64,000 nt of DNA, taken from the NCBI RefSeq assembly GCF_005503445.1, contig NZ_SCOH01000024.1, positions 1 to 64,000 of the forward strand, read 5' to 3'. A program made the position numbers and the translations under genes. Origin of the DNA: Chitinivorax sp. B (lineage in GTDB: Bacteria; Pseudomonadota; Gammaproteobacteria; Burkholderiales; SCOH01). Positions 12,201 through 35,417 of the stretch are shown piece after piece. How positions within the stretch are numbered: position 1 is the stretch's first letter; each line of letters begins with the position of its first letter. The notes below the pieces were generated by a model. That model worked only from the letters and a program-made list of their open reading frames with translations, ran no database searches and was not told where the DNA came from.

Positions 12201-13087
12201 CGGATTTCTCCAAAGTGACCAATTGTCGTGCGGTTGCCACCCACTGTGCCCGGTCTGCTCCGGCCAAGCCTGTGATGCTGCTGGATGGCACCAGTCTGGC
12301 CATCCGCACCGGTGCTGTCGATGCCCGGCATGAATCGGTTGCGCTCGCGGGCTGGCAGGGCGTACCTGAATCATGGCTGGCTCAGTTGCCGGTTGATACC
12401 GCATCGTTTTCTTCCACGCCGCAATGGACCATTTGGGCCCTGACCGGGCAAATCACACCCAGTGAGTTGGATTGGCCAGAAGGCAGGCATTGGCTATTGG
12501 TCGATAGCGCGGATTTGCCCAGCGGATTGCGGGCAAGGCGCCTGCACGCCGCTCGCCAAGCCCTGCTGACGGCCAATGCAGCGAGTGTGCGTTGGTTGAT
12601 TCTACAGCAACCGCTGGTGCAACTTACCCCAGCCAAATTGATGGAGGCGGTCAAGTTGTCACTCGTTGGCGAACAATCCATTTATCTGCATTTGCAAAAA
12701 GAGGAGGTGGCCATGAGCTTGCCACATGCATCTACAGGTGCACCGCAAATCGAGGCTGCGGTTGATCTGAGTGACATTCCTGCGGTGATTACCGGTATCT
12801 GGACCAAGGTACTGGGCATCGAACAGGTTGGCCCGCATGACAATTTCTTCGATCTGGGTGGCAATTCACTTTGGGCATTGCAGATTGTCAGCAAGGTCAA
12901 TGCTGCATTTGGCTGTGAGATTCATCTGTCTGAGTTGCTGGGGGCCGCGACGGTGACGGATCTGGCTGCATTGGTGGAGAAAAGGCTGCTGAGCACGGTG
13001 GATGAAGGGGAGTTGGATGCGCTGCTGAGTGAGCTGGGTGACCTGTCACCGGAAGAAATCCATCAACTGTTGGAATCGCAGACCTGA
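9221..13087 (+). CDS. mono-modular type I polyketide synthase, KS-AT-ACP
   Basis: ATG 9221 is preferred over the in-frame GTG 9206, because GGAG sits 9 bases before it. The 1288-residue protein begins directly with a ketosynthase. Its triad is Cys173 in VNTACSTSL, His309 in HGTGT and His349 in ANVGHLG. An acyltransferase follows with GHSIGE (Ser613) and the HAFH signature (709-712), which predicts malonyl-CoA. Residues 880-1180 show no intact reductase motif and look like a structural linker or a decayed ketoreductase. An acyl carrier protein follows with LGGNSL (Ser1216). The tail ends in LSPEEIHQLLES, resembling a docking helix. It adds one malonyl unit to a chain supplied by another enzyme; no KR, DH or ER activity is visible. 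It is the first gene of a tight operon. Confidence 0.93.
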   Translation: MEIAVVGMDGVFPMAADVAALWSHLLAGRECITDFTDETLLAAGVDPSLLADPSYVKRRPLVGAVDQFDARFFGFTEIEAEALDPQLRLMMQCAYHAMEEASATNDTTRLRTGVFAGLRHSRYLEQHLLFSERHLESLGSDYLQMINRKDSAATLLAYKLNLGGPAISVNTACSTSLLAVHLACNSLLTFECDVALAGGAALPAFAPEGQHYVPGGFLASDGRCRPFSDGADGTIDGAGVGVVVLKRLEDALRDGNRIHAVILGSAANNDGSDKVGYTAPSVNGQVRVITDALEVAGVSPDTIGFVETHGTGTKLGDPIEVRALTQAYRQYTQRRGFCYLGSVKANVGHLGAAAGVAGLIKAVLVLREGQIPPLTHFIKPNPQLQLDTTPFSIPTSVVPFMDGEGPRRAAVSSFGIGGTNVHVVLQRAPDQAEPEAQSTLPILLVLSAKSPAALAKTAQAVASHLAGLSDAELRGVAASLLQGRSQSSYRHAMAVASMEDAAKRFANVGSALQPVGINAPEVAFLFPGQGAQHEGMTLALCDHFPVFAKALAEVVDLVQQYGGFDLMAMINATSPDLLTQTAHTQPALFATEYALAQLWQSLGVKPAVLLGHSIGELTAACVAKVMSLSDAVRLVCARGRFMQAAPGGAMLAVSMTASDLTRQLPESVEIAVINGQSACVAAGPVDAIDRLAVQLESARIGHRRLNTSHAFHSASMEGAAAAFQLLVTEIQLAPPQIPIISNVTGDVLSDADATSPAYWALQLRSTVQFAQGLQSVANQSVAMVLEVGPGNVLTSLARSELRAMTCIASQPNAARREKALLTLMAAAGELWVRGVTVDLAKVSQLAPTTQQVGLPGYCFERQSYWVPASAAKPAPVLPAALGQPVGVIECLPLLGQVARATAEPTVQLVHQRPDLAAMLVAELQQVGCQVRLLDIADLSSTRLDPALPTLLLDTSADGDVRDQLGAWAQAWPMTVLRHTTMVTEEALLVDGMTADFSKVTNCRAVATHCARSAPAKPVMLLDGTSLAIRTGAVDARHESVALAGWQGVPESWLAQLPVDTASFSSTPQWTIWALTGQITPSELDWPEGRHWLLVDSADLPSGLRARRLHAARQALLTANAASVRWLILQQPLVQLTPAKLMEAVKLSLVGEQSIYLHLQKEEVAMSLPHASTGAPQIEAAVDLSDIPAVITGIWTKVLGIEQVGPHDNFFDLGGNSLWALQIVSKVNAAFGCEIHLSELLGAATVTDLAALVEKRLLSTVDEGELDALLSELGDLSPEEIHQLLESQT

Positions 13088-13099
13088 CGGAGCCTTGCC

Positions 13100-14266
13100 A
13101 TGAGTGATTTGAAACAGAAGTTGGCCGGTTTGACACCGGAGCAATTGGCCAAGTTGAAAAGCCAACTGGCCACCAAAAAACCGGTGGAGTCGAATGGCAA
13201 GCCGCTGGATTTCACCATTTTCTTTTTTTCAGCAGATGGAACGAGCGATGGTGGTGACAAATACGACATGCTGTTCCGTTGCGCCGAATTTGGCGATCGC
13301 CATGGCTATAAGGCGATCTGGATGCCGGAACGTCATTTCACCCCATTTGGCGGTTTGTACCCGAACCCGTCGGTGTTGGCGGCAGCGTTGGCGGTGAAGA
13401 CCAGTCGTATCGAACTGCGTGCCGGCAGCGTGGCATTACCGTTGCATAACCCGATTCGGGTTGCGGAAGAATGGGCAGTGGTCGACAACCTGTCGAAAGG
13501 GCGGGTGGCCTTGTCGTTTGCCAGTGGCTGGCACAAGACTGATTTCGCATTGCGGCCCGAGGCCTATGAAGACCGGCGGATGCTGATGGGCCCCAGTCTG
13601 GACATGGTTCAGCGATTGTGGCGTGGTGAAAAGGTGTCAGTCCCCGGTGTGGATGGCGAACCGGTCGACATCATCTCCTATCCGCGTCCGGTTCAACCGG
13701 CGCTGCGCTTCTGGTTGACCTGTGCTTCGCCAACGGGTTGGGAAAAGGCTGGTGAGATGGGGGCCAATGTGTTGTGCATGCTCGGTTCTTCCATCAGCAA
13801 GCTGGAACAGCAGATTGCCGTCTACCGGCAGGCTCGGGCCAAGGCGGGCCATGCACCTGCGGATGGCATCGTGAGTGTGATGTTGCATACCTATGTCGAT
13901 AACGACAGCAAGCGAGCCAAGGACAAGGTCCGTGGGCCGATGAAGCAATACCTCGAAGACTACATCCAGCAATACAACGTACTGGTCGATGAATCGATCA
14001 AACAGGATGTGGCGGCAAACAAAGATGCATTTCTCGAATTTGCATTTGAGCGCTATTTCGAGCAGGCCTCATTACTGGGCCCACAAGACAAATGCCAGGC
14101 ACTGCTGAACACGCTGGCTGATATCGGCGTCAACGAGATTGCCTGTCTGGTGGATTTTGGTGTCTCGACTGAAGACGTGCTGCAAAGCCTGGCCTTGCTC
14201 AAGGAAATGGATGATCGCCGTCGCATCCAGCCCGCCGCTGTTACCGAACCTGCCACTGTGGAATGA
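13100..14266 (+). CDS. stand-alone luciferase-like FMN monooxygenase of natural-product type
   Basis: The 388-residue protein starts 12 bases after the PKS stop, with GGAG 7 bases upstream of ATG 13100. After an N-terminal helix containing LTPEQLAKLKSQLA it is a complete luciferase-like (LLM) alpha/beta barrel: YKAIWMPERHF near 72, GSVALPLHNPIRVAEEWA near 112, and GRVALSFASGWH near 135 are hallmarks of the MupA-type subfamily found inside NRPS and PKS proteins. These enzymes use reduced FMN and oxygen, usually to hydroxylate a carrier-bound chain. Here the domain is a separate protein, so it must act in trans. A flavin reductase encoded at 34779 could supply reduced flavin. The family is firm; the exact reaction is unknown. 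Confidence 0.88.
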   Translation: MSDLKQKLAGLTPEQLAKLKSQLATKKPVESNGKPLDFTIFFFSADGTSDGGDKYDMLFRCAEFGDRHGYKAIWMPERHFTPFGGLYPNPSVLAAALAVKTSRIELRAGSVALPLHNPIRVAEEWAVVDNLSKGRVALSFASGWHKTDFALRPEAYEDRRMLMGPSLDMVQRLWRGEKVSVPGVDGEPVDIISYPRPVQPALRFWLTCASPTGWEKAGEMGANVLCMLGSSISKLEQQIAVYRQARAKAGHAPADGIVSVMLHTYVDNDSKRAKDKVRGPMKQYLEDYIQQYNVLVDESIKQDVAANKDAFLEFAFERYFEQASLLGPQDKCQALLNTLADIGVNEIACLVDFGVSTEDVLQSLALLKEMDDRRRIQPAAVTEPATVE

Positions 14267-15588
14267 ACATGACTCAACCCAATGTACAACTCGACAATCT
14301 GCCCCCTGAGCTGCGTGCCAAGCTGTTGGCCAAATTGGCAGAACGTTCACGCCAAGCCAGTAAGAACATTACCTTGCATAAGCAACCGGCCGACTGGCTA
14401 CGTCTGGATCAACGGTCGTTGTTGAGTCTGTTTGCGGCAGGCGAAGAGGCGCCGGTCGATGCCGTTTCCATCACCTGCATGACGGATCGGGTGGTCGGGA
14501 ACGGGGTGACGTTGTCGGATGTGACACACAAGTTATGTGGCGATTTGCCCATGCTGACCAATATCCGTGAGCTGTCGATCGGTCGTATCGCGACCCTGAC
14601 CTTGCCCCGTACACACGGCCAGATCTATGCCGAGAGCCAGGATGTAGTCAGGTTGGTGGAGCAGAGTCTGAACATGGCTGCCCTGATTGGTGCCAAGACC
14701 GTTTCGCTGACGGGCTTGATTCCGTCGGCGACTGAGTATGGTCGTGCAGTCAGACATCGCGAAGGTCAGCCAACGATTACCACGGGTCATGCCACTACGA
14801 CTTCATCGGTATTGCTGGCACTGAAGCGCTTGCTGGAGGAGAGTGGTCGGCATCTGGCTGACGAGGATCTGTGTTTCATCGGATTGGGTTCGATCGGTAC
14901 GTCAACATTGCGACTGATGCTGAATGCGCTGGATCACCCAAAAAGCCTGACCTTGTGCGATGTCTATGCCAAGCAAGCCGACATCGAAGCTTTGATGCGT
15001 GAGATTCGCGAGGACTTCGAATTCACGGGCAATTTGCGCTTTACCCCATCCCAGCGTACCTGCCCGGATGAAGTGTACGAAGCCACCGTCGTGGTTGGGG
15101 CAACCAATGCACCGAATGTACTGGATATCCATCGGGTCAAACCGGGCACCTTGGTCGTGGACGACTCCGACCCGCATTGCTTTGACGCCCAACAAGCCAT
15201 TGAGCGTTTCGAAAACTGTGGCGACATTCTGTTTACCGAGGGTGGAGCGCTGCGTTCGCCAGATGTGGTCAAACACACCATTTATGTACCTGAACAGTTT
15301 GAATGGGCGCTGCAATACCCGGTCGATGACGACAATGCGCATCACATCACCGGTTGCATCTTCTCCAGTCTGCTGTCGGCCAAGTATGGCTACCCACGTA
15401 CGCTGGGCATGGTCAGCCAGGAGGATGCCTGGACACACCTTTCCGGGTTGGTCAAATACGGCTTTACCGCATCCAACCTGCATTGCGGTCCCTATCGATT
15501 GCAGCGGGAGCGGATCGATACCTTCCGTCGCCAGTTCGGCCATACCGAGGCGCGGCCGGTCAAGGTGTATTTCGACGAGCACGCCTGA
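14263..15588 (+). CDS. acyl-ACP-reductase-like (AAR-like) NAD(P)-dependent thioester reductase
   Basis: The gene overlaps the preceding stop as ATGA; a second ATG lies at 14269. Three blocks match the cyanobacterial long-chain acyl-ACP reductase by eye: TVSLTGLIPSATEYG then TITTGHATTT (about 145-180; AAR has ALGGFTSII and FTTGNTHTA), a dinucleotide loop FIGLGSIGTSTL (about 203-214), and TLVVDDSDPH with TEGGALRSP. Cys365 in TGCIFSSLL falls where AAR has its proposed catalytic Cys in FACFAEAML. The 441-residue protein should therefore reduce a carrier-bound acyl chain to an aldehyde. Its N-terminus carries LPPELRAKLLAKLAER, like the preceding LLM protein. The stop TGA is also the target site of a MITE. 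The family link is by pattern only; a related dehydrogenase is the alternative. Confidence 0.7.
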   Translation: MNMTQPNVQLDNLPPELRAKLLAKLAERSRQASKNITLHKQPADWLRLDQRSLLSLFAAGEEAPVDAVSITCMTDRVVGNGVTLSDVTHKLCGDLPMLTNIRELSIGRIATLTLPRTHGQIYAESQDVVRLVEQSLNMAALIGAKTVSLTGLIPSATEYGRAVRHREGQPTITTGHATTTSSVLLALKRLLEESGRHLADEDLCFIGLGSIGTSTLRLMLNALDHPKSLTLCDVYAKQADIEALMREIREDFEFTGNLRFTPSQRTCPDEVYEATVVVGATNAPNVLDIHRVKPGTLVVDDSDPHCFDAQQAIERFENCGDILFTEGGALRSPDVVKHTIYVPEQFEWALQYPVDDDNAHHITGCIFSSLLSAKYGYPRTLGMVSQEDAWTHLSGLVKYGFTASNLHCGPYRLQRERIDTFRRQFGHTEARPVKVYFDEHA

Positions 15589-15824: not shown

Positions 15825-18800
15825 ATGACGATGATGCAACTTCCTGGCAATGCGAAGAATTACTATGATGTGATCCGTCACTGGGCGGACGTGCGACCGG
15901 ATCAACTGGCCTTCAATTTTATGCAGAACGGTGAGGAAACCACCGCCACGCTGACTTTTGGCCAATTGGATCAAGAGGCGAGAGCTGTCGCCGGCATGTT
16001 GCAGACCCGTGGGTTGTCGGGTCAGGCTGTACTGTTGCAGTATCGGCCCGGCCTGGACTTCATCGTGGCATTTTTCGGTTGCCTGTATGCGGGCGCCATT
16101 GCGGTATCTGCTTACCCGCCCACGGGCAATCGCTCCAAATCTGATCGTTTGCAAAAGTTGGTGGCCAGTTGTGGCGCCCAGACGATTCTGACCAATGCTG
16201 CCACCTTGCCGGATTTGTTGCGTGAAGCAGAGGCGTCGGATCGCGATCCATTACCGATGATCTGCACGGACCAATTGTCAACCGTGGAGGCATTACTATG
16301 GAGAAACCCAGCCGCCACAACGGGAACCATTGCTTTCCTGCAGTATTCGTCGGGCTCAACGGGCGACCCGAAAGGCGTCATCATCAGTCATGGCAACATC
16401 CTGCAAAACCAGCAACTGATTCGTGAAGGCATGGGCAATGGCCCCCACACCGTGTTTGCCAGCTGGTTGCCATTGTTTCATGACATGGGGCTGATCGGTA
16501 ACGTGATGCAGCCGTTGTTCTTGGGGGTGCCGTGCCATTTGATGCCGCCAATGGCTTTCCTGCAAAAGCCGCTGCGCTGGTTGAAGGTCATTTCCGAGCA
16601 GGGGGTGACGTGTACGGGTGGCCCCAATTTTGCCTATGACCTGTGTGTCGACAAAGTAGCGGAAGCTGATCGTGCCGGGTTGGATTTATCCAGTTGGTCA
16701 GTGGTGTATAACGGCGCTGAGCCAATCCGTGCCGCGACACAACGACGTTTTCTGGAAACCTACGCGCCACACGGGGTACGGGAAAGCGCGATCTATCCTT
16801 GTTATGGGCTGGCCGAGGCTACGCTGTTCGTGACCGGCCCAGTGCCGGGCAGCATCTCCCCAATGATCGAGGTGGATGCCGATGCACTGGAGTCAGGTGT
16901 GTTGGCACCGCTGTTGGCCAGTACGGCTCAACGCACCCGTTCGCTGGTCAGTTGCGGTAAACCTTGGGGTGATCAACAGGTTCGGATCGTTCACCCGGAA
17001 ACGCGCAAGTTATGTGCCGCGGGCGAAATCGGCGAAATCTGGCTGCAAGGCGAAAGTGTTTCGCGTGGCTATTGGATGCGACCCGACGCGGATGCGGCCG
17101 TGTTTCAGATTTGTGCCGATCTGCCCGATGCTGGGCTGTTTTGTCGTACGGGTGATCTGGGCACGTTGCTGGATGGGGAGTTGTATGTCACTGGTCGTCT
17201 CAAGGAATTGCTGATTGTCCGTGGCCGTAACCATTATCCGCAGGATATTGAAGCAACCGTACAACAAGCGTGGTCTGGCTTTGTCAGTGGCGGTGGGGCA
17301 GCTTTTCTGCATGAGGGCGGGCAAGGGGAGCAATTGGTCGTGGTGCAGGAAGTCGGGCGCACCGCGTTACGCCAATATGATCACGAAGCCGTATTGCAGC
17401 AGGTTCGCGAGCGAGTGGCTGCAGTCCATGGCTTGACGTTGTCCCGGCTCATTGCCATCAAGCCGGCAACGTTGGCTAAGACCTCCAGCGGCAAGATCCG
17501 TCGTGGTTTCATGAAATCGGCCTGGTTGTCGGGTGGCCTGTCGTTGGTCGAGGGGCAATCAAATGCGCTTGACGCAGCTCACCAGACAAGTGATCAAGGC
17601 TTGGTCGCCCTGGCCTTGCAAGATATCGCGATCCCATTGCCACGGCTCGACCCCAACGCCAGTTTGTTGCAGGCCGGGCTGGATTCATTACAGCTGATTG
17701 AATTGCAAGGCAGTTTGGGGAGGCGCCTGGGTAGCCTGCCCCCGATTGAATGGCTATTCAGCGAGCAATCGCTTGCCGAATTGGAAGCTGCATTGATCAA
17801 CCTGCCGCGTGATTCTGTCGCGTCGGCCGTGACATCGCTTGCAACAACCGATGCATCGGTAAGCTTTACCCCTGCCACCTCGGGCCAGCGACGCTTGTGG
17901 TTGCTTGACCAGCAAGGAGCGGGCAGCGCCTACAACATCGCCGCAGGTATTGCCTGGCAGGGCAAGCTGAATCTTCAGGCCTGGTGCCAGGCGTTGAATG
18001 CCTGTTTGGCGCGTCATCCCGCCCTGCGTACCTTACTGATTGAGCAGAATGGTGAGCTGAGCCAGCAGTTGGCTGATGCACAACCGATGGTCGACTTGAT
18101 TCCCGTGCCAGAACAACCGCCGGAGGATTGGCTGGCGGCTTTCGCCAATCGCCCGTTCGATCTGGCACATGACCTGCCGATTCGGGTCTGCATGACACAA
18201 GCGGATGCAGAGACCCATTACTTCTTTATCAGCGTCCACCATACCGCCATCGACGGCTGGGGTTTTTCAGTACTGCTGAAGGAATTGCGCAGTGCCTATG
18301 ACAGTTTCTGCCAGGGCACCATACCGACTTGGCCTGTCAATAGCACGACCATGGCGGACGTGGCACGTCGTCAGCATTCAGCTCAGCATGACACGGCGTT
18401 GGCGTTTTGGCGTGAACGGCTGACATCTCCGCCTGTTCCTATCCGTTTTAATGGGGCGGGTGAAGTGGCTGGTGCCGCCTTTGCGGGTGGCGATTTGCTG
18501 TTCGATTTACCCATTGAGTTATGTAACCAGTTAAGTGCCTGCGCCGCGTCGAGCGGTGTGACGCCGTATCATTGGTTGCTGGCGGTGTACAAGCTGTTGC
18601 TGAGCAAGTATGCGGGGCAACGTGACCTGTGCGTGTTGGTACCGGTCGCCAACCGCAGCCACCCGGACACCCAGCCACTGGTGGGTTTCCTGACCAACAC
18701 CGTGGTCAGCCGCAGTGTGCTGGACCCAGCGCAATCGCTGCTGGCCTTGGTGCAGCAGGAAGCGGCGGCGACGCGGGCGATGCTGCCGCACCAGGGTATC

Positions 18801-21800
18801 CCGTTCGAACAGGTGGTGGCGGATGGCCGGGCACGTGGCGACACAGTGCCCAGCAACCTGATGTTCAGCCTGCAGACGGTATCGGAACAGGACCTGGCGC
18901 TGCCGGGCCTGCGCACCCGGCTGCTGCGTTACCGCCCGCAGCAAGCCAAGTTCGACCTGTGTCTGACGGTGGAACAACGCGGTCAACACTGGCAAGGCCT
19001 GTTCGACTACCGGCAGGCGGCACTGAGCGCGGCGCAGGTAGCGACCTTGGCCGCCGGCTACCAGACCTTGCTGCGCCAGGCGTTGGCCGACCCACAGCGT
19101 GTACTGGGCGAGTTCGCCCTGGCCGAGCCGAGCGCACCGGCCGCGCTGGCGCGCCCCACACCCTGGCAGCCGGTGCTGGCCCAGATCGCCGCGCAAGTGG
19201 CCGCCACGCCGCAGGCGGTGGCGCTGGTCCAGGGCGACCAGTCACTGGACTACGCCACCCTGTGGGCACGAGTGGGCGCCACCGCCGAGCAACTGCGGCA
19301 GCATGGCCTGGGTGCCGGGCAGCAGATCGGCCTGCAACTGCCGGCCAGCCCGGCACTGGTGATCGCGCTGCTGGCCAGCCTGGCAGTCGGGGCCGCCTAT
19401 GTCCCGCTGGACCCGCAACTGCCGCTGGCCCGGCGACAGACCCTGATCGAAGAAGCGCAACTGTCGGCGCTGTTCCTGACCGCGGAGCCGACCGACGCCA
19501 CCGTCACAGAGACTGCCACGTCCACCATCCCCTTATTGACCGTCTCGCCCCATCGGCTGGCTGACTGGCAACCCACGCCGGTCGAACCGACCGACGCGGC
19601 CTACCTGATCTTCACCTCCGGCTCCACCGGACGGCCGAAAGCCGCGCGGGTGCATCACGGCGGCCTGACCGGCCTGTTGCAGTGGTACCGGCAGACCTGC
19701 CTGACCGACGCGGCCCGGGTGTTGGTGATCAGCAACCCCAGCTTCGACCTGACCCAGAAGAACCTGCTCGGTCCGCTGACCTGCGGTGGCCAGATCGGCT
19801 TCCCGAGCAGCGCCCGCTTCGACCCGCAAGCGATCCTGCAGGCGCTCCAGGTACAACAGGCGCAACTGGTCAACTGCACCCCGACCGCCTTCCACAGCCT
19901 GCTGCTGGACAGCGAACCCGACCACTACCGGGCATTGGCCAGCCTGCGGCAAGTGGTCCTGGGCGGCGAACCGATCCAGCTGGAGCCGTTACGGCACTGG
20001 CAGCAGGTCAGCGGCAGTCCGGCGCGTATCCTCAACAGCTATGGCCCCACCGAATGCGCCGACGTGGTCGCCTACCACTGGCTGGCGGCCGACCTGCAAC
20101 AACAGACAAGCCCGGTGCCCTTGGGCCATGCTGTGGCTGGTTGCTGGCTGCAAGTGGTCGACCAGGACGGTCAGCCGCTGCCGGAGGGGGTGGTCGGTGA
20201 ACTGCAGATCGACGGCGACTGCGTCGGACTGGGCTACTTCCAGCGCCCGGACCTGACCGTGCAGGCCTTCCTGAGCGGCGGCCTTGGCCATACCGGGCAA
20301 CGCTACCGCACCGGTGACCTGGTGTACTGCCAGGACGGCTGCTACCACTACCTGGGCCGTCGCGACCAACAGATCAAACTGAACGGCTACCGCATCGAAC
20401 TGGGGGAGATCGAAGCCGCCCTGCTGGCGGTGCCGGCGATCGCCCAGGCAGCGGTGGCCTTGCGTCAGGACGACCACGGCCACCCGATCCTGGTCGGCTT
20501 CTACCAGAGCCGGGATGGCCAGGCGCAAGCGGAAGCCAGCTTGCGGCAGACCCTGGCGCAGACCCTGGCCAGCTACCAGCTGCCGGCCCGTTACCTGTGG
20601 CTGCCTGAGCTGCCGCTGACCCGCAGCGGCAAGGTGGACCGTAACGCCTTGCCGCAGCACCTGCCGGCCCGGCAGGAGGGGACCGCGCAGCAGGACGACT
20701 GGACCGCATCGGAACGGCAACTGGCGGGCCTGTGGCAAACCTTGCTGGGGCAGGCGCCACGGCAGCGGACGGACGACTTCTTTGCCCTGGGTGGGCATTC
20801 GCTGCTGGCGTTGGAACTGGTACGGCGCGTCCGGCAGGAGCTGGGCTTGGCGCTGAGCGTGGAAGCCATCTTCCGCCATGGCCAGCTGGCCGACATGGCC
20901 CAGCAACTGCAAGCCACTGCGGCCGAGGCCCCGATCCCGGCCCTGGCTGGCGGCTCGCCGCAGCCCGCCACCCCTGGCCAGCAACGGCTGTGGTTATTGG
21001 ACCGGTTAGGCGCCGGCAGTGCCTACCATGTGGCGGCAGGCATCGAACTGCATGGTCCGTTGCAACGCGAGGCGTGGCAACAAGCCGTACTTGCCACCTT
21101 GCAACGTCATCCCGCCTTGCGGACCCGCCTGCAGGAGCACGCCGGGCAACTGCAGCAACACTGGGACCTACCGGCCCCAGACTGCGCTCTGCAGTCTGCC
21201 CCCGCCAGCGACAGCCAGGCCTTGTTGCAGGCCTTTGCCGATCGACCGTTCGATCTGGCGCAGGATGCCCCGTGCCGCAGTCAATTGATCTGTCACGGTC
21301 CTGAGCATCACACCTTCCTGCTGTGTCTGCACCATAGCGCCATCGACGAATGGGCGATGGCGCAGTTGCTGGACGAACTGACCGCGACCTATCAGCACCT
21401 GCTGCAGACCGGTCAATTGCCCTCATTGCCGGCGGTGACGCTGACGGTGGCGGACTGGGCCGTCTGGCAAGCCGGGCAGCCGGCCCAGCAACAGGCTGGT
21501 CGCGACTACTGGCAGCAGCAACTGACCCCGGCGGTATCCCCGCTGCGCTTTGGCGCGGCTGCCAGTGACGACGATCGGGCTGGCCAGCTGATCCTCAATT
21601 TGCCGGACAGTCTGCACAGCGTCTTGCAACAACGCGCCGCGTCGAGCGGTGTGACGCCGTATCATTGGTTGCTGGCGGTGTACAAGCTGTTGCTGAGCAA
21701 GTATGCGGGGCAACGTGACCTGTGCGTGTTGGTACCGGTCGCCAACCGCAGCCACCCGGACACCCAGCCACTGGTGGGTTTCCTGACCAACACCGTGGTC

Positions 21801-24800
21801 AGCCGCAGTGTGCTGGACCCAGCGCAATCGCTGCTGGCCTTGGTGCAGCAGGAAGCGGCGGCGACGCGGGCGATGCTGCCGCACCAGGGTATCCCGTTCG
21901 AACAGGTGGTGGCGGATGGCCGGGCACGTGGCGACACAGTGCCCAGCAACCTGATGTTCAGCCTGCAGACGGTATCGGAACAGGACCTGGCGCTGCCGGG
22001 CCTGCGCACCCGGCTGCTGCGTTACCGCCCGCAGCAAGCCAAGTTCGACCTGTGTCTGACGGTGGAACAACGCGGTCAACACTGGCAAGGCCTGTTCGAC
22101 TACCGGCAGGCGGCACTGAGCGCGGCGCAGGTAGCGACCTTGGCCGCCGGCTACCAGACCTTGCTGCGCCAGGCGTTGGCCGACCCACAGCGTGTACTGG
22201 GCGAGTTCGCCCTGGCCGAGCCGAGCGCACCGGCCGCGCTGGCGCGCCCCACACCCTGGCAGCCGGTGCTGGCCCAGATCGCCGCGCAAGTGGCCGCCAC
22301 GCCGCAGGCGGTGGCGCTGGTCCAGGGCGACCAGTCACTGGACTACGCCACCCTGTGGGCACGAGTGGGCGCCACCGCCGAGCAACTGCGGCAGCATGGC
22401 CTGGGTGCCGGGCAGCAGATCGGCCTGCAACTGCCGGCCAGCCCGGCACTGGTGATCGCGCTGCTGGCCAGCCTGGCAGTCGGGGCCGCCTATGTCCCGC
22501 TGGACCCGCAACTGCCGCTGGCCCGGCGACAGACCCTGATCGAAGAAGCGCAACTGTCGGCGCTGTTCCTGACCGCGGAGCCGACCGACGCCACCGTCAC
22601 AGAGACTGCCACGTCCACCATCCCCTTATTGACCGTCTCGCCCCATCGGCTGGCTGACTGGCAACCCACGCCGGTCGAACCGACCGACGCGGCCTACCTG
22701 ATCTTCACCTCCGGCTCCACCGGACGGCCGAAAGCCGCGCGGGTGCATCACGGCGGCCTGACCGGCCTGTTGCAGTGGTACCGGCAGACCTGCCTGACCG
22801 ACGCGGCCCGGGTGTTGGTGATCAGCAACCCCAGCTTCGACCTGACCCAGAAGAACCTGCTCGGTCCGCTGACCTGCGGTGGCCAGATCGGCTTCCCGAG
22901 CAGCGCCCGCTTCGACCCGCAAGCGATCCTGCAGGCGCTCCAGGTACAACAGGCGCAACTGGTCAACTGCACCCCGACCGCCTTCCACAGCCTGCTGCTG
23001 GACAGCGAACCCGACCACTACCGGGCATTGGCCAGCCTGCGGCAAGTGGTCCTGGGCGGCGAACCGATCCAGCTGGAGCCGTTACGGCACTGGCAGCAGG
23101 TCAGCGGCAGTCCGGCGCGTATCCTCAACAGCTATGGCCCCACCGAATGCGCCGACGTGGTCGCCTACCACTGGCTGGCGGCCGACCTGCAACAACAGAC
23201 AAGCCCGGTGCCCTTGGGCCATGCTGTGGCTGGTTGCTGGCTGCAAGTGGTCGACCAGGACGGTCAGCCGCTGCCGGAGGGGGTGGTCGGTGAACTGCAG
23301 ATCGACGGCGACTGCGTCGGACTGGGCTACTTCCAGCGCCCGGACCTGACCGTGCAGGCCTTCCTGAGCGGCGGCCTTGGCCATACCGGGCAACGCTACC
23401 GCACCGGTGACCTGGTGTACTGCCAGGACGGCTGCTACCACTACCTGGGCCGTCGCGACCAACAGATCAAACTGAACGGCTACCGCATCGAACTGGGGGA
23501 GATCGAAGCCGCCCTGCTGGCGGTGCCGGCGATCGCCCAGGCAGCGGTGGCCTTGCGTCAGGACGACCACGGCCACCCGATCCTGGTCGGCTTCTACCAG
23601 AGCCGGGATGGCCAGGCGCAAGCGGAAGCCAGCTTGCGGCAGACCCTGGCGCAGACCCTGGCCAGCTACCAGCTGCCGGCCCGTTACCTGTGGCTGCCTG
23701 AGCTGCCGCTGACCCGCAGCGGCAAGGTGGACCGTAACGCCTTGCCGCAGCACCTGCCGGCCCGGCAGGAGGGGACCGCGCAGCAGGACGACTGGACCGC
23801 ATCGGAACGGCAACTGGCGGGCCTGTGGCAAACCTTGCTGGGGCAGGCGCCACGGCAGCGGACGGACGACTTCTTTGCCCTGGGTGGGCATTCGCTGCTG
23901 GCATTGGAACTGGTACGGCGCGTCCGGCAGGAGCTGGGCTTGGCGCTGGATATCGATATTGTGTTCCGTCATGCCACGTTGGGTGGCATGGCCTCACATC
24001 TTTCTCAAGATGGGATGATGGCGGCATTGCCTACCTTGTCAGTAGCACATTGCGTGCCATTGACGGCCATGCAGCGACGCTTGTGGTTCCTGTTCCGCTT
24101 GGAAGGGCCGAACGCAAATTACAACATGGCCGCGGCGTACCGACTGGAAGGCAGGCTGGATATCGGTGCTTTGGCGGCCGGCTTGCGTGATCTACTGGCG
24201 CGCCATTGGATTTTGCGTAGCCAGCTGGATTGTCATCACGACATGCCCACATTGCAAGTGATGCCGTACGAAATCGTTCTGATCGAACGGCACTGGGTGG
24301 AGCCTGCAGTCGTTGAGTCGCAAATGGCCGCTTTTTTGAGCAGACCGTTTGATCTGGTACACGAGCCGCTGTCACGCTTTGGTATTTGGTCGGTCAGTGC
24401 GGAAGAGCACTACCTGCTGGCCAATATCCACCATATCGCTTGCGACGGTATGTCATTGATCACGTTGTTTGGCGAATTGAGCGAAGCTTATCGTCGTCGT
24501 CGGGACGGCGAACCCCCGTTCATTGATCGCGCGCCGGTGCAGTTTGCCGAATTGGCGCAATACCAGGCCGATGAACAGCAGCGGGAAGATTATCGTCGTC
24601 AGTTGGCCGAGCTGGCCGAGATGTTACGTGACGCACCACCGGAATCCGGCTTACCCGTTGATCGAGACCGGTCGCCGAGCAGTCATTACCAGACATCGCG
24701 ACATCACTTCCAACTGGACTCAGCGACACGTCGCCATGTCCAGCAACTGGCGGCAGAACAAGCAACGACGCCGTTCTGCGTGCTGCTGGCCAGTTGGTTC

Positions 24801-27296
24801 CTGCTATTGGCTACCTATCGGCGACAGCATGATCTGGTCGTCGGTGTACCGATTGTGTGTCGCGATGTGCCAGGTAGTGAGGATGTGATCGGGCCATTGC
24901 TGAATACGCTGGCAATCAGGGTGGATAGCGCGGAGGCCACGGATTTTGTCGAATTACTGCGTCGGACGACTCAGGCCTTCCGCTTTGCACGGGATCGACG
25001 GTCGGTGGCCTTTGACGATGTGGTGGATGCAGTCAATCCACCGCGGCGGCTCGGCTTGTCCCCGTTGTTTCAGGTTCAATTTGTACTGGACCCTGTTTCA
25101 CAGGCAGGGTTGGCATTGGATGGCGTCAGTGTGACCGCCATGCCATTGGGCGATGGCAGTGCGAAGTATGACTTGAATGTCCATTTGTTCGATGACGGCA
25201 ATACGATTGAGATCAATCTCGATTACCGCAGCGCGCTGTATCTGCCAGACACCATCCAGGCCCTGGGCGCCAGTTGGGCAGCGTTATTGCAAATGGTGGC
25301 CAGCAATCCGGCCAAGCCGCTGGCTGGTTTGTGCTTGCTGTCGGCGGCTCAACTGGATGAATTGAATCTTGTTCAGTCCCGGCCGGACACAACCTTACTG
25401 GCAGATGATCTGGTACACCACCTGTTTGAACAGCAGGCCGGCCACTCGCCTGATCAGGTGGCCTTGCTGAGCGAGAGCGGGCAATTGAGTTATGGCGAGC
25501 TGAATCAGCAAGCCAATCAATTTGCGCATAAATTGATTGCTGCTGGTGTACAGCCAGGTGACATCGTGGGGGTGTTCCAGTCACGTGGTTTTGCGCGGAT
25601 TGTGTCCTTGTTCGGTATTTTGAAAGCCGGGGCTACCTACTTGCCGATCGACCCGGAATGGCCGTCAGCACGCCGTCAATTGGTGCTCGGTCAGGCGGCG
25701 TGTCGTGCAGTGGTGGTGGAAGCCACCTTGCGAAGCGAGATCGATGCGCTTGGGTTGCCAGCGGTTTTACCGTATGGCAACGACGATACGCATTTCGATA
25801 TCACCGCGCCTCAGGTGCCAGTAACGGCAGAGCATCCGTGCTACCTGATGTTTACCTCCGGCTCGACGGGTGTTCCCAAGGGGGTTCTGATTCGGCACGG
25901 TGGCGTAGCCCATGATCTGCAGTTCCTGATCCGCAAGCTGGGGTTACGTCATGGCCACAGGGTCCTGCAATTGACTGCTTTCAGTTTCGACCCATCCGTG
26001 CGTGATCTGTTTGCCGCGCTGGGGGCTGGGGCGAGTGCTGTGGTGGTCGACGATACGGTCGCCAAGCACCCGGCGCGCATCATTAACACCATAGTGGGAC
26101 AGCGCGTCAGCCATGTGCTGTCGATGGTGCCGACCTTGCTGCGGGCGTTGTTGGCAGAGCAGGGGAGATTGGTGACAGACGGACATGCCTTGCAAGCGCT
26201 GATGTTGAACGGCGAGCGGTTGCGTGGCGACGATTGTCGTCGCGCCCGCCAGCTGTTTGGCCCAGCTCTGACGCTGATCAACCAGTATGGCCCGACCGAA
26301 GCCACCATGACCAGTGCGACACACGTTGTCGCAGAACAGGATCTGGATACCCTGACGGTGCCACTGGGTGTACCCAACGCCAATACCACGCTGTTCGTGG
26401 TGGATGCGCATGGGCAACCGTTACCGCAAGGGGCCATTGGCGAAATCTGGATAGCGGGGCCTGGTCTGGCTGCTGGGTATACCAATCAACCTGAGCAAAC
26501 CGCGGCCAACTTTGTGACGACCCAATGGGATCAGCTGGGCTGCCCTTTGCCTTGCTATCGAACTGGTGATTTGGGGCGTTGGCGCGGTGACGGTGTGTTG
26601 ACTTTTCATGGTCGGATCGACTTCCAGATCAAGTTGCGTGGTAACCGGATCGAACTGGGTGAGATCGACGCTGCCATTGGTCAACTACCGGGCGTGGCTC
26701 ATTGCGCCACGACGATCCATGAAGTGGAAGGGCAGACGCCACTATTGGTAGCGTTCATGACCAGCAGCAACGGGATGACCCTCGATTCCGTGGCATTGAA
26801 ACAAGCCCTGTCGCAGTACTTACCGTCCCACATGGTCCCGGTACATTTCTTCACGCTGCCCGCTTTGCCGTTGACTGCCAGTGGCAAGGTTGACCGCAAG
26901 CGCTTGCCAGATGCCACGCCCTATCTTCAGCAACGGCAACCGGTGGAAGGCATCGTGCCGAAAAACAAGCTGGAACAAGAAATCGCATCTGTCTGGATGG
27001 CATTGTTGAGTCTGTCCGCATTGCCAAACCGAGAAGCCAATTTCTTTGAGCTGGGCGCCAATTCATTGCTGATGGTACAAGCGCGGGACCGGCTGGTCGA
27101 ACGTCTGAATCTGCAGCTGGATGTTGTGGATTTGTTTCAGCACCCGAGTATTGCCGCGCTTGGGAAACATCTTCAACAACAGAATCAACCTGAAGAAAGC
27201 GCGTCAACCACGGTTCAAAGTGAATCAGCAGTACACGCTGCACGCCGCAAGCAGGCGCTGACCGCGCGACGACCTGGCCGGCCTGGGCTGCAATAA
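15825..27296 (+). CDS. lipo-NRPS: FAAL-ACP-C-A-PCP-C-A-PCP-C-A-PCP
   Basis: A 3823-residue megasynthase. FAAL, residues 1-580 (YSSGSTGDPKG near 173, FHDMGLIG, YGLAEATLF), activates a fatty acid. ACP: GLDSL, Ser621. C1: HHTAIDG 805-811. A1: YLIFTSGSTG near 1260. PCP1: Ser1659. C2: HHSAIDE 1836-1842, where the usual Gly is Glu. A2: near 2291. PCP2: Ser2690. C3: HHIACDG 2869-2875. A3: YLMFTSGSTG near 3340. PCP3: LGANSL, Ser3747. A basic tail ends the protein; no TE, reductase or epimerase domain is present. Reading A-domain pockets against GrsA by eye gives DLKNVGSDV for A1 and A2 and DPRSMNQMT for A3; I cannot assign substrates. The product is an acyl tripeptide with residues 1 and 2 alike. ATG 15825 has a weak ribosome site; ATG 15831 and 15834 are alternatives. 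Confidence 0.95.
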   Translation: MTMMQLPGNAKNYYDVIRHWADVRPDQLAFNFMQNGEETTATLTFGQLDQEARAVAGMLQTRGLSGQAVLLQYRPGLDFIVAFFGCLYAGAIAVSAYPPTGNRSKSDRLQKLVASCGAQTILTNAATLPDLLREAEASDRDPLPMICTDQLSTVEALLWRNPAATTGTIAFLQYSSGSTGDPKGVIISHGNILQNQQLIREGMGNGPHTVFASWLPLFHDMGLIGNVMQPLFLGVPCHLMPPMAFLQKPLRWLKVISEQGVTCTGGPNFAYDLCVDKVAEADRAGLDLSSWSVVYNGAEPIRAATQRRFLETYAPHGVRESAIYPCYGLAEATLFVTGPVPGSISPMIEVDADALESGVLAPLLASTAQRTRSLVSCGKPWGDQQVRIVHPETRKLCAAGEIGEIWLQGESVSRGYWMRPDADAAVFQICADLPDAGLFCRTGDLGTLLDGELYVTGRLKELLIVRGRNHYPQDIEATVQQAWSGFVSGGGAAFLHEGGQGEQLVVVQEVGRTALRQYDHEAVLQQVRERVAAVHGLTLSRLIAIKPATLAKTSSGKIRRGFMKSAWLSGGLSLVEGQSNALDAAHQTSDQGLVALALQDIAIPLPRLDPNASLLQAGLDSLQLIELQGSLGRRLGSLPPIEWLFSEQSLAELEAALINLPRDSVASAVTSLATTDASVSFTPATSGQRRLWLLDQQGAGSAYNIAAGIAWQGKLNLQAWCQALNACLARHPALRTLLIEQNGELSQQLADAQPMVDLIPVPEQPPEDWLAAFANRPFDLAHDLPIRVCMTQADAETHYFFISVHHTAIDGWGFSVLLKELRSAYDSFCQGTIPTWPVNSTTMADVARRQHSAQHDTALAFWRERLTSPPVPIRFNGAGEVAGAAFAGGDLLFDLPIELCNQLSACAASSGVTPYHWLLAVYKLLLSKYAGQRDLCVLVPVANRSHPDTQPLVGFLTNTVVSRSVLDPAQSLLALVQQEAAATRAMLPHQGIPFEQVVADGRARGDTVPSNLMFSLQTVSEQDLALPGLRTRLLRYRPQQAKFDLCLTVEQRGQHWQGLFDYRQAALSAAQVATLAAGYQTLLRQALADPQRVLGEFALAEPSAPAALARPTPWQPVLAQIAAQVAATPQAVALVQGDQSLDYATLWARVGATAEQLRQHGLGAGQQIGLQLPASPALVIALLASLAVGAAYVPLDPQLPLARRQTLIEEAQLSALFLTAEPTDATVTETATSTIPLLTVSPHRLADWQPTPVEPTDAAYLIFTSGSTGRPKAARVHHGGLTGLLQWYRQTCLTDAARVLVISNPSFDLTQKNLLGPLTCGGQIGFPSSARFDPQAILQALQVQQAQLVNCTPTAFHSLLLDSEPDHYRALASLRQVVLGGEPIQLEPLRHWQQVSGSPARILNSYGPTECADVVAYHWLAADLQQQTSPVPLGHAVAGCWLQVVDQDGQPLPEGVVGELQIDGDCVGLGYFQRPDLTVQAFLSGGLGHTGQRYRTGDLVYCQDGCYHYLGRRDQQIKLNGYRIELGEIEAALLAVPAIAQAAVALRQDDHGHPILVGFYQSRDGQAQAEASLRQTLAQTLASYQLPARYLWLPELPLTRSGKVDRNALPQHLPARQEGTAQQDDWTASERQLAGLWQTLLGQAPRQRTDDFFALGGHSLLALELVRRVRQELGLALSVEAIFRHGQLADMAQQLQATAAEAPIPALAGGSPQPATPGQQRLWLLDRLGAGSAYHVAAGIELHGPLQREAWQQAVLATLQRHPALRTRLQEHAGQLQQHWDLPAPDCALQSAPASDSQALLQAFADRPFDLAQDAPCRSQLICHGPEHHTFLLCLHHSAIDEWAMAQLLDELTATYQHLLQTGQLPSLPAVTLTVADWAVWQAGQPAQQQAGRDYWQQQLTPAVSPLRFGAAASDDDRAGQLILNLPDSLHSVLQQRAASSGVTPYHWLLAVYKLLLSKYAGQRDLCVLVPVANRSHPDTQPLVGFLTNTVVSRSVLDPAQSLLALVQQEAAATRAMLPHQGIPFEQVVADGRARGDTVPSNLMFSLQTVSEQDLALPGLRTRLLRYRPQQAKFDLCLTVEQRGQHWQGLFDYRQAALSAAQVATLAAGYQTLLRQALADPQRVLGEFALAEPSAPAALARPTPWQPVLAQIAAQVAATPQAVALVQGDQSLDYATLWARVGATAEQLRQHGLGAGQQIGLQLPASPALVIALLASLAVGAAYVPLDPQLPLARRQTLIEEAQLSALFLTAEPTDATVTETATSTIPLLTVSPHRLADWQPTPVEPTDAAYLIFTSGSTGRPKAARVHHGGLTGLLQWYRQTCLTDAARVLVISNPSFDLTQKNLLGPLTCGGQIGFPSSARFDPQAILQALQVQQAQLVNCTPTAFHSLLLDSEPDHYRALASLRQVVLGGEPIQLEPLRHWQQVSGSPARILNSYGPTECADVVAYHWLAADLQQQTSPVPLGHAVAGCWLQVVDQDGQPLPEGVVGELQIDGDCVGLGYFQRPDLTVQAFLSGGLGHTGQRYRTGDLVYCQDGCYHYLGRRDQQIKLNGYRIELGEIEAALLAVPAIAQAAVALRQDDHGHPILVGFYQSRDGQAQAEASLRQTLAQTLASYQLPARYLWLPELPLTRSGKVDRNALPQHLPARQEGTAQQDDWTASERQLAGLWQTLLGQAPRQRTDDFFALGGHSLLALELVRRVRQELGLALDIDIVFRHATLGGMASHLSQDGMMAALPTLSVAHCVPLTAMQRRLWFLFRLEGPNANYNMAAAYRLEGRLDIGALAAGLRDLLARHWILRSQLDCHHDMPTLQVMPYEIVLIERHWVEPAVVESQMAAFLSRPFDLVHEPLSRFGIWSVSAEEHYLLANIHHIACDGMSLITLFGELSEAYRRRRDGEPPFIDRAPVQFAELAQYQADEQQREDYRRQLAELAEMLRDAPPESGLPVDRDRSPSSHYQTSRHHFQLDSATRRHVQQLAAEQATTPFCVLLASWFLLLATYRRQHDLVVGVPIVCRDVPGSEDVIGPLLNTLAIRVDSAEATDFVELLRRTTQAFRFARDRRSVAFDDVVDAVNPPRRLGLSPLFQVQFVLDPVSQAGLALDGVSVTAMPLGDGSAKYDLNVHLFDDGNTIEINLDYRSALYLPDTIQALGASWAALLQMVASNPAKPLAGLCLLSAAQLDELNLVQSRPDTTLLADDLVHHLFEQQAGHSPDQVALLSESGQLSYGELNQQANQFAHKLIAAGVQPGDIVGVFQSRGFARIVSLFGILKAGATYLPIDPEWPSARRQLVLGQAACRAVVVEATLRSEIDALGLPAVLPYGNDDTHFDITAPQVPVTAEHPCYLMFTSGSTGVPKGVLIRHGGVAHDLQFLIRKLGLRHGHRVLQLTAFSFDPSVRDLFAALGAGASAVVVDDTVAKHPARIINTIVGQRVSHVLSMVPTLLRALLAEQGRLVTDGHALQALMLNGERLRGDDCRRARQLFGPALTLINQYGPTEATMTSATHVVAEQDLDTLTVPLGVPNANTTLFVVDAHGQPLPQGAIGEIWIAGPGLAAGYTNQPEQTAANFVTTQWDQLGCPLPCYRTGDLGRWRGDGVLTFHGRIDFQIKLRGNRIELGEIDAAIGQLPGVAHCATTIHEVEGQTPLLVAFMTSSNGMTLDSVALKQALSQYLPSHMVPVHFFTLPALPLTASGKVDRKRLPDATPYLQQRQPVEGIVPKNKLEQEIASVWMALLSLSALPNREANFFELGANSLLMVQARDRLVERLNLQLDVVDLFQHPSIAALGKHLQQQNQPEESASTTVQSESAVHAARRKQALTARRPGRPGLQ
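18541..20855 (+). repeat. long direct repeat in the NRPS gene, copy 1 (end of C1, A1, PCP1)
   Basis: 2315 bases repeated at 21634-23948 (offset 3093 bases, i.e. 1031 codons). I see a single mismatch, at 20810 against 23903. It covers the second half of the C domain, the whole A domain and most of the PCP, past its Ser. The start is sharp (18540 and 21633 differ) and so is the end, just after LGLAL in the PCP. Confidence 0.93.
21634..23948 (+). repeat. long direct repeat in the NRPS gene, copy 2 (end of C2, A2, PCP2)
   Basis: Second copy of the 2315-base repeat. The 778 bases between the copies (20856-21633) hold the end of PCP1 and the first half of C2 and are not repeated. The whole block 18541-23948 is visibly richer in G and C than the NRPS sequence on either side. 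Confidence 0.93.
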
Positions 27297-27311: not shown

Positions 27312-27752
27312 ATGGATACCCAAGATAAACATCACGAATCCAGTCGATTGGAAACTGGCATCGCAGTCTTGAAGGAGATGGAACTGGACCTTGGCAATCC
27401 GCACGGCTTATTGCATGGGATGCGTGTCAATGCACCAGCCTTCAAGCAACGGACTATTGAAATGTTTGGGGAGTTTTATGGAGGAGAACAAGCCATCGAC
27501 CTCAAGACAAAACTGTTGTTGGCAACGGCATTGGCTGCCACCCAGCCGTCAGAAGAAGGTGGGCTGGAGTTCCATGTGGCAGCGGCCATCAAAGCGGGTT
27601 GGTCGAAGCTGGAAGTGGTAAATGTGATTGAATTGACTGCATTTTTCGTGGGTTGGCAGAAGGCCATCAAAGCGATGCAGGTGGCCATTCAGACTTTTGA
27701 CAAAATTGATCAATTAGCACCACAAGGTCAGGAGATATCGCATGCCGGCTGA
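27312..27752 (+). CDS. carboxymuconolactone decarboxylase-like (AhpD-fold) protein without the Cys pair
   Basis: A 146-residue all-helical protein starting 11 bases or less after GGAG. The core, from LKTKLLLATALAA (about 58) through EFHVAAAIKAGWSKLEVVNV to FFVGWQKAIKAM, is that of the CMD/AhpD family. The CxxC motif that gives AhpD its peroxidase activity is absent: the equivalent stretch reads EEGGLEFH, with only the His kept. It is therefore not an alkyl hydroperoxide reductase. It may act as a decarboxylase or isomerase on the product, or bind an intermediate. It follows the NRPS by 15 bases and overlaps the next gene, so it belongs to the cluster. Function unknown. Confidence 0.7.
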   Translation: MDTQDKHHESSRLETGIAVLKEMELDLGNPHGLLHGMRVNAPAFKQRTIEMFGEFYGGEQAIDLKTKLLLATALAATQPSEEGGLEFHVAAAIKAGWSKLEVVNVIELTAFFVGWQKAIKAMQVAIQTFDKIDQLAPQGQEISHAG

Positions 27753-28569
27753 TATAAAGGCTGTGGGCTCCTTTCTGCCCCTAACCCCTGATGGCGCACT
27801 GATCAACGATACCAGTCTGTCCCATATCGAGCCGAGCCTGGCAAAGGAAACGGTGCGTCTATATGAGCAATGGTTTGGCGACACACTGCGCAGTGTTTAT
27901 GTACGTGGCTCGGTCGCAAGAGGCAATGCAATCCCGGGATGTTCCGATTTCGATACCTTTGCGGTACTGGATCGTGACGCATTGCCACAATGCCCGGCGC
28001 CGACCGATACAGAACTGAAGCATTTATCCATGCTGGCACCGGGCTTAACGCAGTTTGAATTTCACGCCTGCACCGAAGCAAATGTGTTGGACAGCTATTA
28101 CAGCACTTGGCCCTTTCTGATCAAAACACAATCTGTTTGCCTGCATGGCATCGATTATGCGCAACAGCTCGAAAACTATTACCCGGGCCCGGAAGTGATG
28201 GGGGAGGCTTTGTATGTACCGGAACGACTGCGGTTGTATGGCGAGCGATTGCAAAACGAGCAGCAAGTGGCACAAAAGGTGAATACCTGCGAATGGATCA
28301 TGAAAGCGTTGGTACGAGCAGCGTTTGATCTGACCATGGATCGGTGCCGGCAATATACCCGTGACCTATGGCTATGCCATCGGACATTCGCTGAGTATTA
28401 CTCCGCACAGGCGAATGACTGTCATCAAGCACTTTGCTGGGCGATTGAGCCCGATGCAGATTCGATTGCCCAATCGGAATTGGTCAATCGCCTGGGGGCT
28501 TGGATCACCAATGAGATGTTAAGACTGGTTGGACAATATGGCATCGATTTGAGTCGTTACCGGCTGTAG
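27742..28569 (+). CDS. nucleotidyltransferase-domain protein, possible self-resistance enzyme
   Basis: A 275-residue protein overlapping the previous gene by 11 bases, with AGGAG before ATG 27742. The DNA-polymerase-beta-like nucleotidyltransferase motif is visible at about residues 53-71: GSVARGN followed by SDFDTFAVLD, giving the two metal-binding Asp residues. The rest is helical, as in aminoglycoside adenylyltransferases and kanamycin nucleotidyltransferase. It could transfer AMP to a hydroxyl group on the cluster product, either to protect the producer or as a tailoring step; neither is shown by the sequence. It is the last gene before a 170-bp inverted-repeat element that separates it from the exporter gene. 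Confidence 0.7.
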   Translation: MPADIKAVGSFLPLTPDGALINDTSLSHIEPSLAKETVRLYEQWFGDTLRSVYVRGSVARGNAIPGCSDFDTFAVLDRDALPQCPAPTDTELKHLSMLAPGLTQFEFHACTEANVLDSYYSTWPFLIKTQSVCLHGIDYAQQLENYYPGPEVMGEALYVPERLRLYGERLQNEQQVAQKVNTCEWIMKALVRAAFDLTMDRCRQYTRDLWLCHRTFAEYYSAQANDCHQALCWAIEPDADSIAQSELVNRLGAWITNEMLRLVGQYGIDLSRYRL

Positions 28570-28595
28570 TTGGGGTGACTACCGGTACGGAATAG

Positions 28596-28765
28596 CTAGC
28601 CTGGATATTTCATAAATTGACGCGAGTGCTGGCTTGTCTTTTGATCCATATGAAGATTTTCGTTCTGTCGCGCGTAAGAGCCACTACGCGACTCCTTCAC
28701 GAAATCTCCCTATGAATCAAAATCCTGCGCCATCACCTCGCGAATTCGCGAAATATCCAGGTTAG
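28596..28765. mobile_element. 170-bp inverted-repeat element (MITE-like), single copy here
   Basis: The ends are inverted repeats of about 30 bases: CTAGCCTGGATATTTC...GCGAG (28596-28626) and CTCGC...GAAATATCCAGGTTAG (28737-28765), matching apart from a few central bases. No reading frame spans it. It sits between the nucleotidyltransferase and MFS genes and could fold into a long hairpin in the transcript. The ends differ from those of the 142-bp element, so this is another family. No second copy is in the window. Confidence 0.6.
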
Positions 28766-28846
28766 ATGATTTAAGGCTGGATGTGGCAAGTTGACCTGGC
28801 GAATGATAGGCGTGCCGCCCAGAATCTGCTGAAAATAGGAGTAGTC

Positions 28847-30082: not shown

Positions 30083-30627
30083 TGGACAGACGACTGCGGA
30101 TTGATTTGACTGACAAGCTGACCCACTGGCTGAAGCCAACTGTGGGCGATATTGTCGCCGATTTCTCTCGGGCCTTGGCCAGCAAGCAGATAGCTGGCAC
30201 GAAGCCACCTTATATATTGGGTAGCCAGCATTGTGTGGGTTTCACCGAAACCCCGCTCAATGTATCAGCCAAGCTGCTGGCATCCTCCAAGACCTTTGGG
30301 ATCAATTATGCGCCTGTGGGGTTTGTTGTCGACCGTAATTGGTTGTTCCGCCAAGGTGCACGTCCGGTGATCTATCAGACTGAGGCAGAAGCGACTCAGT
30401 TGCCTGACAGTCAGTTGTATCGTCATGTGACCTTGGACCCCGATCGGAACATCGATTTCACTTGGAAACGTGAATGGCGAGTTCCTACCCAGCATTTGAT
30501 ACTGGATGAACGTTACTGCACGCCCGTGGTGCCATCTGTCGAATGGTTGCAATTGATTCGCGAAGGACAAGGCGACGCGGTCGAGCAATGGCTGCGTAAT
30601 GCAATTGTCCTGTCACATTTCCTGTGA
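30082..30627 (+). CDS. uncharacterised 181-residue cluster protein
   Basis: The gene shares one base with the MFS stop codon, so the two are almost certainly co-translated. The protein is soluble, with no signal peptide and no membrane segment. A recognisable pattern is CVGFTETPL (about 53) followed by FGINYAPVGFVVDRNWLF and DFTWKREWRVP, i.e. conserved aromatic and acidic residues. It is reminiscent of small conserved proteins sometimes linked to phage defence, but I cannot assign a family. Its position suggests a role in resistance, export or tailoring. Confidence 0.6.
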   Translation: MDRRLRIDLTDKLTHWLKPTVGDIVADFSRALASKQIAGTKPPYILGSQHCVGFTETPLNVSAKLLASSKTFGINYAPVGFVVDRNWLFRQGARPVIYQTEAEATQLPDSQLYRHVTLDPDRNIDFTWKREWRVPTQHLILDERYCTPVVPSVEWLQLIREGQGDAVEQWLRNAIVLSHFL

Positions 30628-30649
30628 TTCGAAATCAAGGCTGATCACC

Positions 30650-34775: not shown

Positions 34776-34778
34776 GCG

Positions 34779-35333: not shown

Positions 35334-35417
35334 TTTGTTGAGGATCTTGTCTGGTCCGATTGTCCCGTCATCGTAAATTCTTAATCGGAGCGGCGTTGGC
35401 AACAGCGCCTGTCAACC

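Follow-up and report, generated by a model that had tools for sequence, protein, structure and literature searches.

A near-identical direct repeat within a GC-rich block of a nonribosomal peptide synthetase gene in Chitinivorax sp. B

How two neighboring modules of a single nonribosomal peptide synthetase (NRPS) came to share 2315 bp of almost identical DNA is the question raised by the locus described here. The window analyzed is a stretch of 64,000 nucleotides at one end of contig NZ_SCOH01000024.1 from the draft genome of Chitinivorax sp. B (5.66 Mb in 169 contigs), and the gene under study encodes a fatty acyl-AMP ligase (FAAL) and an acyl carrier protein (ACP) followed by three modules, each comprised of a condensation (C), an adenylation (A), and a peptidyl carrier protein (PCP) domain (Table 1). 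Sequence comparison confirms the near-perfect repeat described in the initial annotation and its coordinates: positions 18541-20855 and 21634-23948 are direct repeats of 2315 bp with one mismatch (20810/23903), giving exact runs of 2269 and 45 bp. The repeat period is 3093 bp, or 1031 codons. The single mismatch is a synonymous third-position change, so both protein copies are identical, and the divergence between the copies amounts to one change in about 614 synonymous sites (dS about 0.002). The limits are as sharp as had been claimed, with the in-register ungapped identity dropping right outside the repeat to 47% over the 641 nt before it and to 32% over the 641 nt after it. A match of 99.96% across 2315 bp far exceeds chance similarity between modules, and chance likeness was ruled out by the 32-47% identity outside the repeat. 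No further occurrence of the repeat was found elsewhere in the assembly.

The outer ends of the repeat coincide with changes in base composition. The guanine-plus-cytosine (GC) content is 57% on either side of the block; within it, each copy has 68.7% and the intervening spacer 65.9%. On recounting, 47 of 60 positions at 19141-19200 and 30 of 60 at 24001-24060 are G or C, as first reported. A two-edge likelihood fit to third codon positions, made blind to the repeat, placed the edges at 18537 and 23949 with a log-likelihood gain of 110 (2-unit support of 18522-18624 and 23850-23967), 4 bp and 1 bp from the outer ends of the repeat. The composition change noted earlier at both outer edges is thus recovered at the same places by an unsupervised fit. 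The inner ends of the repeat lack a clear composition step, with gains of 4.7 and 2.2 and best points elsewhere. Third-position GC is 0.850 in the repeat, 0.754 in the spacer, and 0.623 in the flanks (spacer versus repeat, p=6e-4). Codon-choice likelihoods trained on the repeat itself were dropped as partly circular and counts at fourfold sites were used instead, which gave a GC of 0.839 for the spacer compared with 0.844 for the C-lobe part of the repeat (p=1.0) and 0.68 for the flanks (p=1e-4). Among the stretches examined, the maximum GC over 2315 bp was 64.7% in the host's other NRPS genes and 64.6% in a congener versus 68.7% in the repeat, placing the repeat outside the range of host NRPS genes. 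The spacer taken alone lies within that range, as host NRPS genes elsewhere reach 67.9% over 778 bp.

Such a peak could in principle arise without any import, if repeated GC-biased gene conversion within the lineage had raised the GC content of the shared stretch. This would agree with GC peaking exactly in the shared stretch and being lower in the spacer, and with the local GC-rich stretches in host NRPS genes elsewhere. However, the spacer is shared with nothing and still shows the raised fourfold-site GC given above, its third-position GC is above that of all 313 windows from other genes in the 64-kb stretch (maximum 0.715), and the adjoining half of C1, which is of the module-2 type described below, has host composition with no rise in GC. 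We consider this explanation highly improbable.

Copy 1 begins at residue 907 of the protein. Counted within C1 this is residue 232, which the AlphaFold2 model (pLDDT of about 90 in this region) places in a helix (residues 222-234) that comes after a strand (residues 215-220) and a long loop (residues about 191-214). If the loop is the inter-lobe linker and the strand the first one in the C-terminal lobe, as we interpret them, the left end of the repeat lies about 20 residues into the acceptor lobe, within the helix and near, but not at, the linker. The right end of copy 1 lies 18 residues beyond the PCP1 serine (Ser1659, codon 20799-20801). The earlier proposal that the repeat cuts both the C domain and the PCP is therefore correct, whereas its placing of the right end just after the serine is not. 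As copy 1 starts in the C acceptor lobe and ends past the PCP serine, the repeating period is C acceptor lobe-A-PCP-C donor lobe. The active-site motifs of the three C domains are HHTAIDG in C1, HHSAIDE in C2, and HHIACDG in C3. The C2 motif (about 21330-21354, in the spacer part) has a glutamate in place of the glycine, with the usual DG in C1 and C3.

Using the 441-aa protein encoded ahead of the NRPS gene as a marker, four orthologous clusters were located, in Pantoea stewartii pCN101 (NZ_CP046586.1), Erwinia sp. ErVv1, Erwinia piriflorinigrans CFBP 5888, and Hahella sp. CCB-MM4. The window cluster is a variant of this Pantoea/Erwinia/Hahella cluster: the gene order polyketide synthase (PKS), MupA/Atu3671 monooxygenase, 441-aa protein, and FAAL-NRPS is present in the window as in the relatives, all have three NRPS modules, and the Pantoea cluster also shares the MFS, AMP ligase, hydrolase, NAD synthase-like, and penicillin acylase genes. 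The order was checked gene by gene against Pantoea; for Erwinia and Hahella the 441-aa protein and the NRPS were compared by sequence and the other genes by the size and place of their open reading frames. In contrast to the window, the relatives divide the NRPS between two genes, gene A encoding FAAL-ACP-C1-A1-PCP1 and gene B encoding TubC_N-C2-A2-PCP2-C3-A3-PCP3, with modules that are unlike one another, a single module-2-type unit per genome, no internal repeat, and no GC block (TubC_N was tested in three of the four relatives; the end of the third module lies outside the Erwinia and Hahella loci compared, and a whole-genome search gave gene lengths of 2115-2173 aa plus a further module). 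The window gene is fused, without the relatives' distinct module 1 and without the TubC_N docking domain of their second gene. No terminal thioesterase (TE) was seen in the window gene by domain analysis.

The A-domain specificity codes were read at positions set by motif alignment to GrsA. In the relatives A1 carries DLFTLALVY (4/4) and A2 carries DLKCVGSDV (4/4), and A3 of Pantoea carries DPRMMNQMT, whereas the window has DLKCVGSDV twice, followed by DPRMMNQMT. A1 and A2 of the window are 100% identical to each other and 47-56% identical to the relatives' A2, so that, as in concerted evolution, paralogous modules of the window are closer than the orthologous modules of the relatives. In the trees, both halves of the window C1 and C2 group with the relatives' C2 (82/53 for the N-lobe, which is weak, and 100/100 for the C-lobe) and the window C3 groups with the relatives' C3 (97/92 and 100/99). 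The relatives' C1 domains form their own clade (100/100) with the motif HHxxxDH or DA (HHIALDA in Hahella), and are perhaps a special acyl-accepting C type. The N-lobe of the window C1 is sister to that of C2 (94/83), and the two are 43% identical. The two module-2-type units of the window are therefore old relatives, and their fresh identity is restricted to the stretch running from the C acceptor lobe into the middle of the PCP. No distant relative was found to have the same two modules diverged normally, each having one module-2-type unit, and the sole congener in the genome set is without the cluster. With three modules in the window and in the relatives, the module count is unchanged and module 2 is now present twice. 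The initial suggestion of an extra module caught early in its evolution is contradicted by this, as the relatives' module 1 is gone and the module-2 type is found twice instead; an extra module compared with the relatives was accordingly rejected.

The history that we tentatively favor, at a little short of an even chance, is that a GC-rich array in which module-2 units already stood in tandem contributed about 1.75 of these units by recombination to an NRPS gene of host composition. Loss of the relatives' module 1, the gene boundary, and the docking domain would have fused FAAL-ACP to a module-2 C domain. The 5.4-kb GC-rich stretch from 18541 to 23948 would have entered in a single event by recombination between homologous places, with entry at the start of the C acceptor lobe and exit in mid-PCP, from a presumably foreign donor in the form of a perfect tandem of the 3093-bp module-2 unit (C acceptor lobe-A-PCP-C donor lobe). 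Where 5408 bp of a 3093-bp tandem are imported, the repeated part would measure 5408-3093 = 2315 bp and its outer limits would be those of the import itself, so a periodic import yields four ends from two break points, where other histories need one more coincidence. The gene would have retained its own donor-side half of C1, which faces the acyl carrier, and its own end of PCP2, which faces C3, with a foreign middle between them. Import with duplication or homogenization, as first put forward, is still the best class of explanation, although not in the form of an added module. Simple tandem duplication in place was rejected, since the order is host-repeat-spacer-repeat-host and the spacer is absent after copy 2.

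Several observations weigh against the import of a tandem array. The tandem donor is postulated and not seen. The third-position GC of the spacer is below that of the repeat (0.754 versus 0.850), and the spacer N-lobe is 0.10 lower than the rest, exceeding the difference in all 28 modules compared (mean -0.011, sd 0.042); a single source genome for spacer and repeat would not lead one to expect this deficit. In other NRPS genes of the host, third-position GC attains 0.82 over 260 codons, so the block is not wholly beyond the host range. No donor lineage for a GC-rich import was identified among plasmids or the genomes sampled at family, order, class, and phylum level and around Erwinia and Hahella. 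These amounted to about 1980 genome look-ups, with some genomes searched more than once, and represent only a small share of prokaryote species; the best match beyond the orthologous clusters was 39%. A whole-protein donor search of genome contigs found nothing, and a search of genome contigs with the 441-aa marker gave three orthologues, all low-GC.

The lower third-position GC of the spacer fits a repeated tract with a history other than that of the spacer, and is the best evidence for a two-step origin by gene conversion. Here a GC-rich module 2 would have entered or been long present, and gene conversion or unequal exchange would then have copied the acceptor-lobe-A-PCP part over module 1. 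Homogenization of adjacent related modules is known (PMC4256081; mcyB1/mcyC, PMC2174460), and N-lobes of C1 and C2 that are sisters yet only 43% identical are expected if the pair is old and conversion has recently acted on the tract that separates them. However, the right end of the conversion tract (20855) must then match by chance the exit of copy 2 from the GC block (23948/23949). We regard this two-step origin as a close rival of the tandem import, a real possibility that falls clearly short of probable.

An assembly effect, in the form of a wrong number of passes through a loop (1, 2, 3, or more modules) or a spurious loop, would also place two copies side by side. In the graph of a short-read assembly, a perfect repeat with one spacer forms a simple loop; the present assembly is fragmented into its 169 contigs, and the exact 2269-bp run is longer than short reads. 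Such an error is nevertheless improbable: the spacer codes for in-frame PCP and C parts at the proper places, each variant of the single base that differs between the copies is linked to its own right flank, the repeat is found nowhere else in the assembly, and the three-module gene matches the module count of the relatives. Given the loop that repeat and spacer would form in a draft assembly, two copies may be a lower bound. The period of 3093 bp is a multiple of three, and an exchange between the two copies would therefore take out or put in exactly one whole module without shifting the reading frame. It is rather unlikely that the repeat serves as a standing module-number switch, which would give two-, three-, and more-module forms in the population and acyl-(X)n-Y products of varied length, the two copies seen being a lower bound.

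Returning to the gene as assembled, the predicted product is a small lipopeptide, acyl-X-X-Y, where the relatives would make acyl-Z-X-Y. The code DLKCVGSDV was not found in the literature searched, and residue X is left unnamed.

Near-identical neighboring or recently duplicated modules are known in NRPS and PKS systems, including syringopeptin, mycolactone, and the daptomycin family (PMC4256081). The window resembles these in having near-identical neighboring modules within one assembly line, but its identity is limited to acceptor-lobe-A-PCP, its outer ends lie at a composition step, and its relatives have the same module count. Overwriting of one module's A domain by that of another has been described for microcystin mcyB1/mcyC (PMC2174460) and wollamide (PMC9205934). 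The likeness to mcyB1/mcyC is that a module's specificity is overwritten by that of another module of the same cluster; mcyB1/mcyC moves A domains only, without C, whereas half a C domain, the A domain, and part of the PCP have moved in the window. The natural exchanges reported are predominantly A-core swaps (PMC8097286), which leave the C and T domains largely unaffected (PMC12184294), and for this reason an exchange that takes along part of a PCP and one half of a C domain is less usual, although not of a new kind. Engineered exchange units are cut inside the C domain (XUC, PMC11546977) or at or inside the T domain (XUT, PMC12668312). The window is like XUC in its period of C acceptor lobe-A-PCP-C donor lobe and has ends in C and T domains, but its left break is near, not at, the donor/acceptor linker and is natural, not engineered. 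XUT breaks fall directly before the T domain or in FFxxGGxS, whereas the window break is 18 residues after the serine. Rules of natural NRPS recombination guide the engineering of new peptides, and this locus resolves, almost to the base, both break points of what appears to be a very recent exchange in nature, alongside relatives in which the architecture is unexchanged. Native sequence is retained in the upstream-facing half of C and the downstream-facing end of the PCP, and what lies between, the acceptor lobe with A and the greater part of the PCP, is swapped as one block, as in XUC engineering, making this a clean natural example of NRPS reprogramming by a process already known in outline.

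Table 1. Coordinates of the NRPS gene, its parts, and other genes of the cluster in the window
Feature	Coordinates	Strand	Remarks
NRPS gene	15825..27296	+	3823 aa; FAAL-ACP-[C1-A1-PCP1]-[C2-A2-PCP2]-[C3-A3-PCP3]
FAAL starter domain	15864..17543	+	57% GC, host-like composition
ACP behind FAAL	17601..17795	+	Joined straight onto module-2-type C domain
C1 N-terminal (donor) part	17853..18540	+	Motif HHTAIDG; module-2 type; host composition
Repeat copy 1	18541..20855	+	C1 C-terminal (acceptor) lobe, A1 (code DLKCVGSDV), PCP1 start up to 18 residues past Ser1659; 68.7% GC
Sole difference between copies	20810..20810	+	G at 20810, A at 23903; GCG/GCA, Ala, synonymous
Spacer, non-repeated	20856..21633	+	Remainder of PCP1 and C2 N-terminal part (HHSAIDE); 65.9% GC, third-position GC 0.754
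Repeat copy 2	21634..23948	+	C2 C-terminal lobe, A2, first part of PCP2; 68.7% GC
PCP2 remainder and module 3	23949..27296	+	C3-A3-PCP3, A code DPRMMNQMT; host composition; orthologue of relatives' module 3
Type I PKS	9206..13087	+	Same cluster; Pantoea has a beta-ketoacyl synthase gene at the matching place
Luciferase-like monooxygenase	13100..14266	+	MupA/Atu3671 family; of the cluster
441-aa protein	14263..15588	+	Faint SbnB-type dehydrogenase likeness; 62-64% identity to Pantoea, Erwinia, and Hahella orthologues
Downstream genes	27312..38486	+	Pantoea order: CMD-size protein, nucleotidyltransferase-like, MFS, unknown, AMP ligase, thioesterase, NAD synthase-like, LysE-size protein, penicillin acylase
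TE-like protein	32284-33090		Separate from the NRPS

The CMD, nucleotidyltransferase, and LysE labels in Table 1 are given from position and size alone. A sigma-54 activator and a class I/II aminotransferase (38652-41104) follow the penicillin acylase gene in the window; the Pantoea stretch compared ends within the acylase gene. A 153-bp element is present at 15582-15734, just before the NRPS gene, and at 41128-41280, just after the aminotransferase gene. These two copies are 92% alike, and the genome contains about 40 occurrences of the element at 78-95%. It folds as one long imperfect hairpin with the ends GAACCTGTTCAA/TTGAACAGGTTC (z -6.6) and is a palindromic intergenic repeat resembling a miniature inverted-repeat transposable element (MITE). 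A relation of this genome-wide element to the module repeat was rejected. Tandem glycine riboswitch aptamers (RF00504, 61 and 44 bits) lie at 52994-53272 on the - strand, ahead of the gene at 51856-52947.

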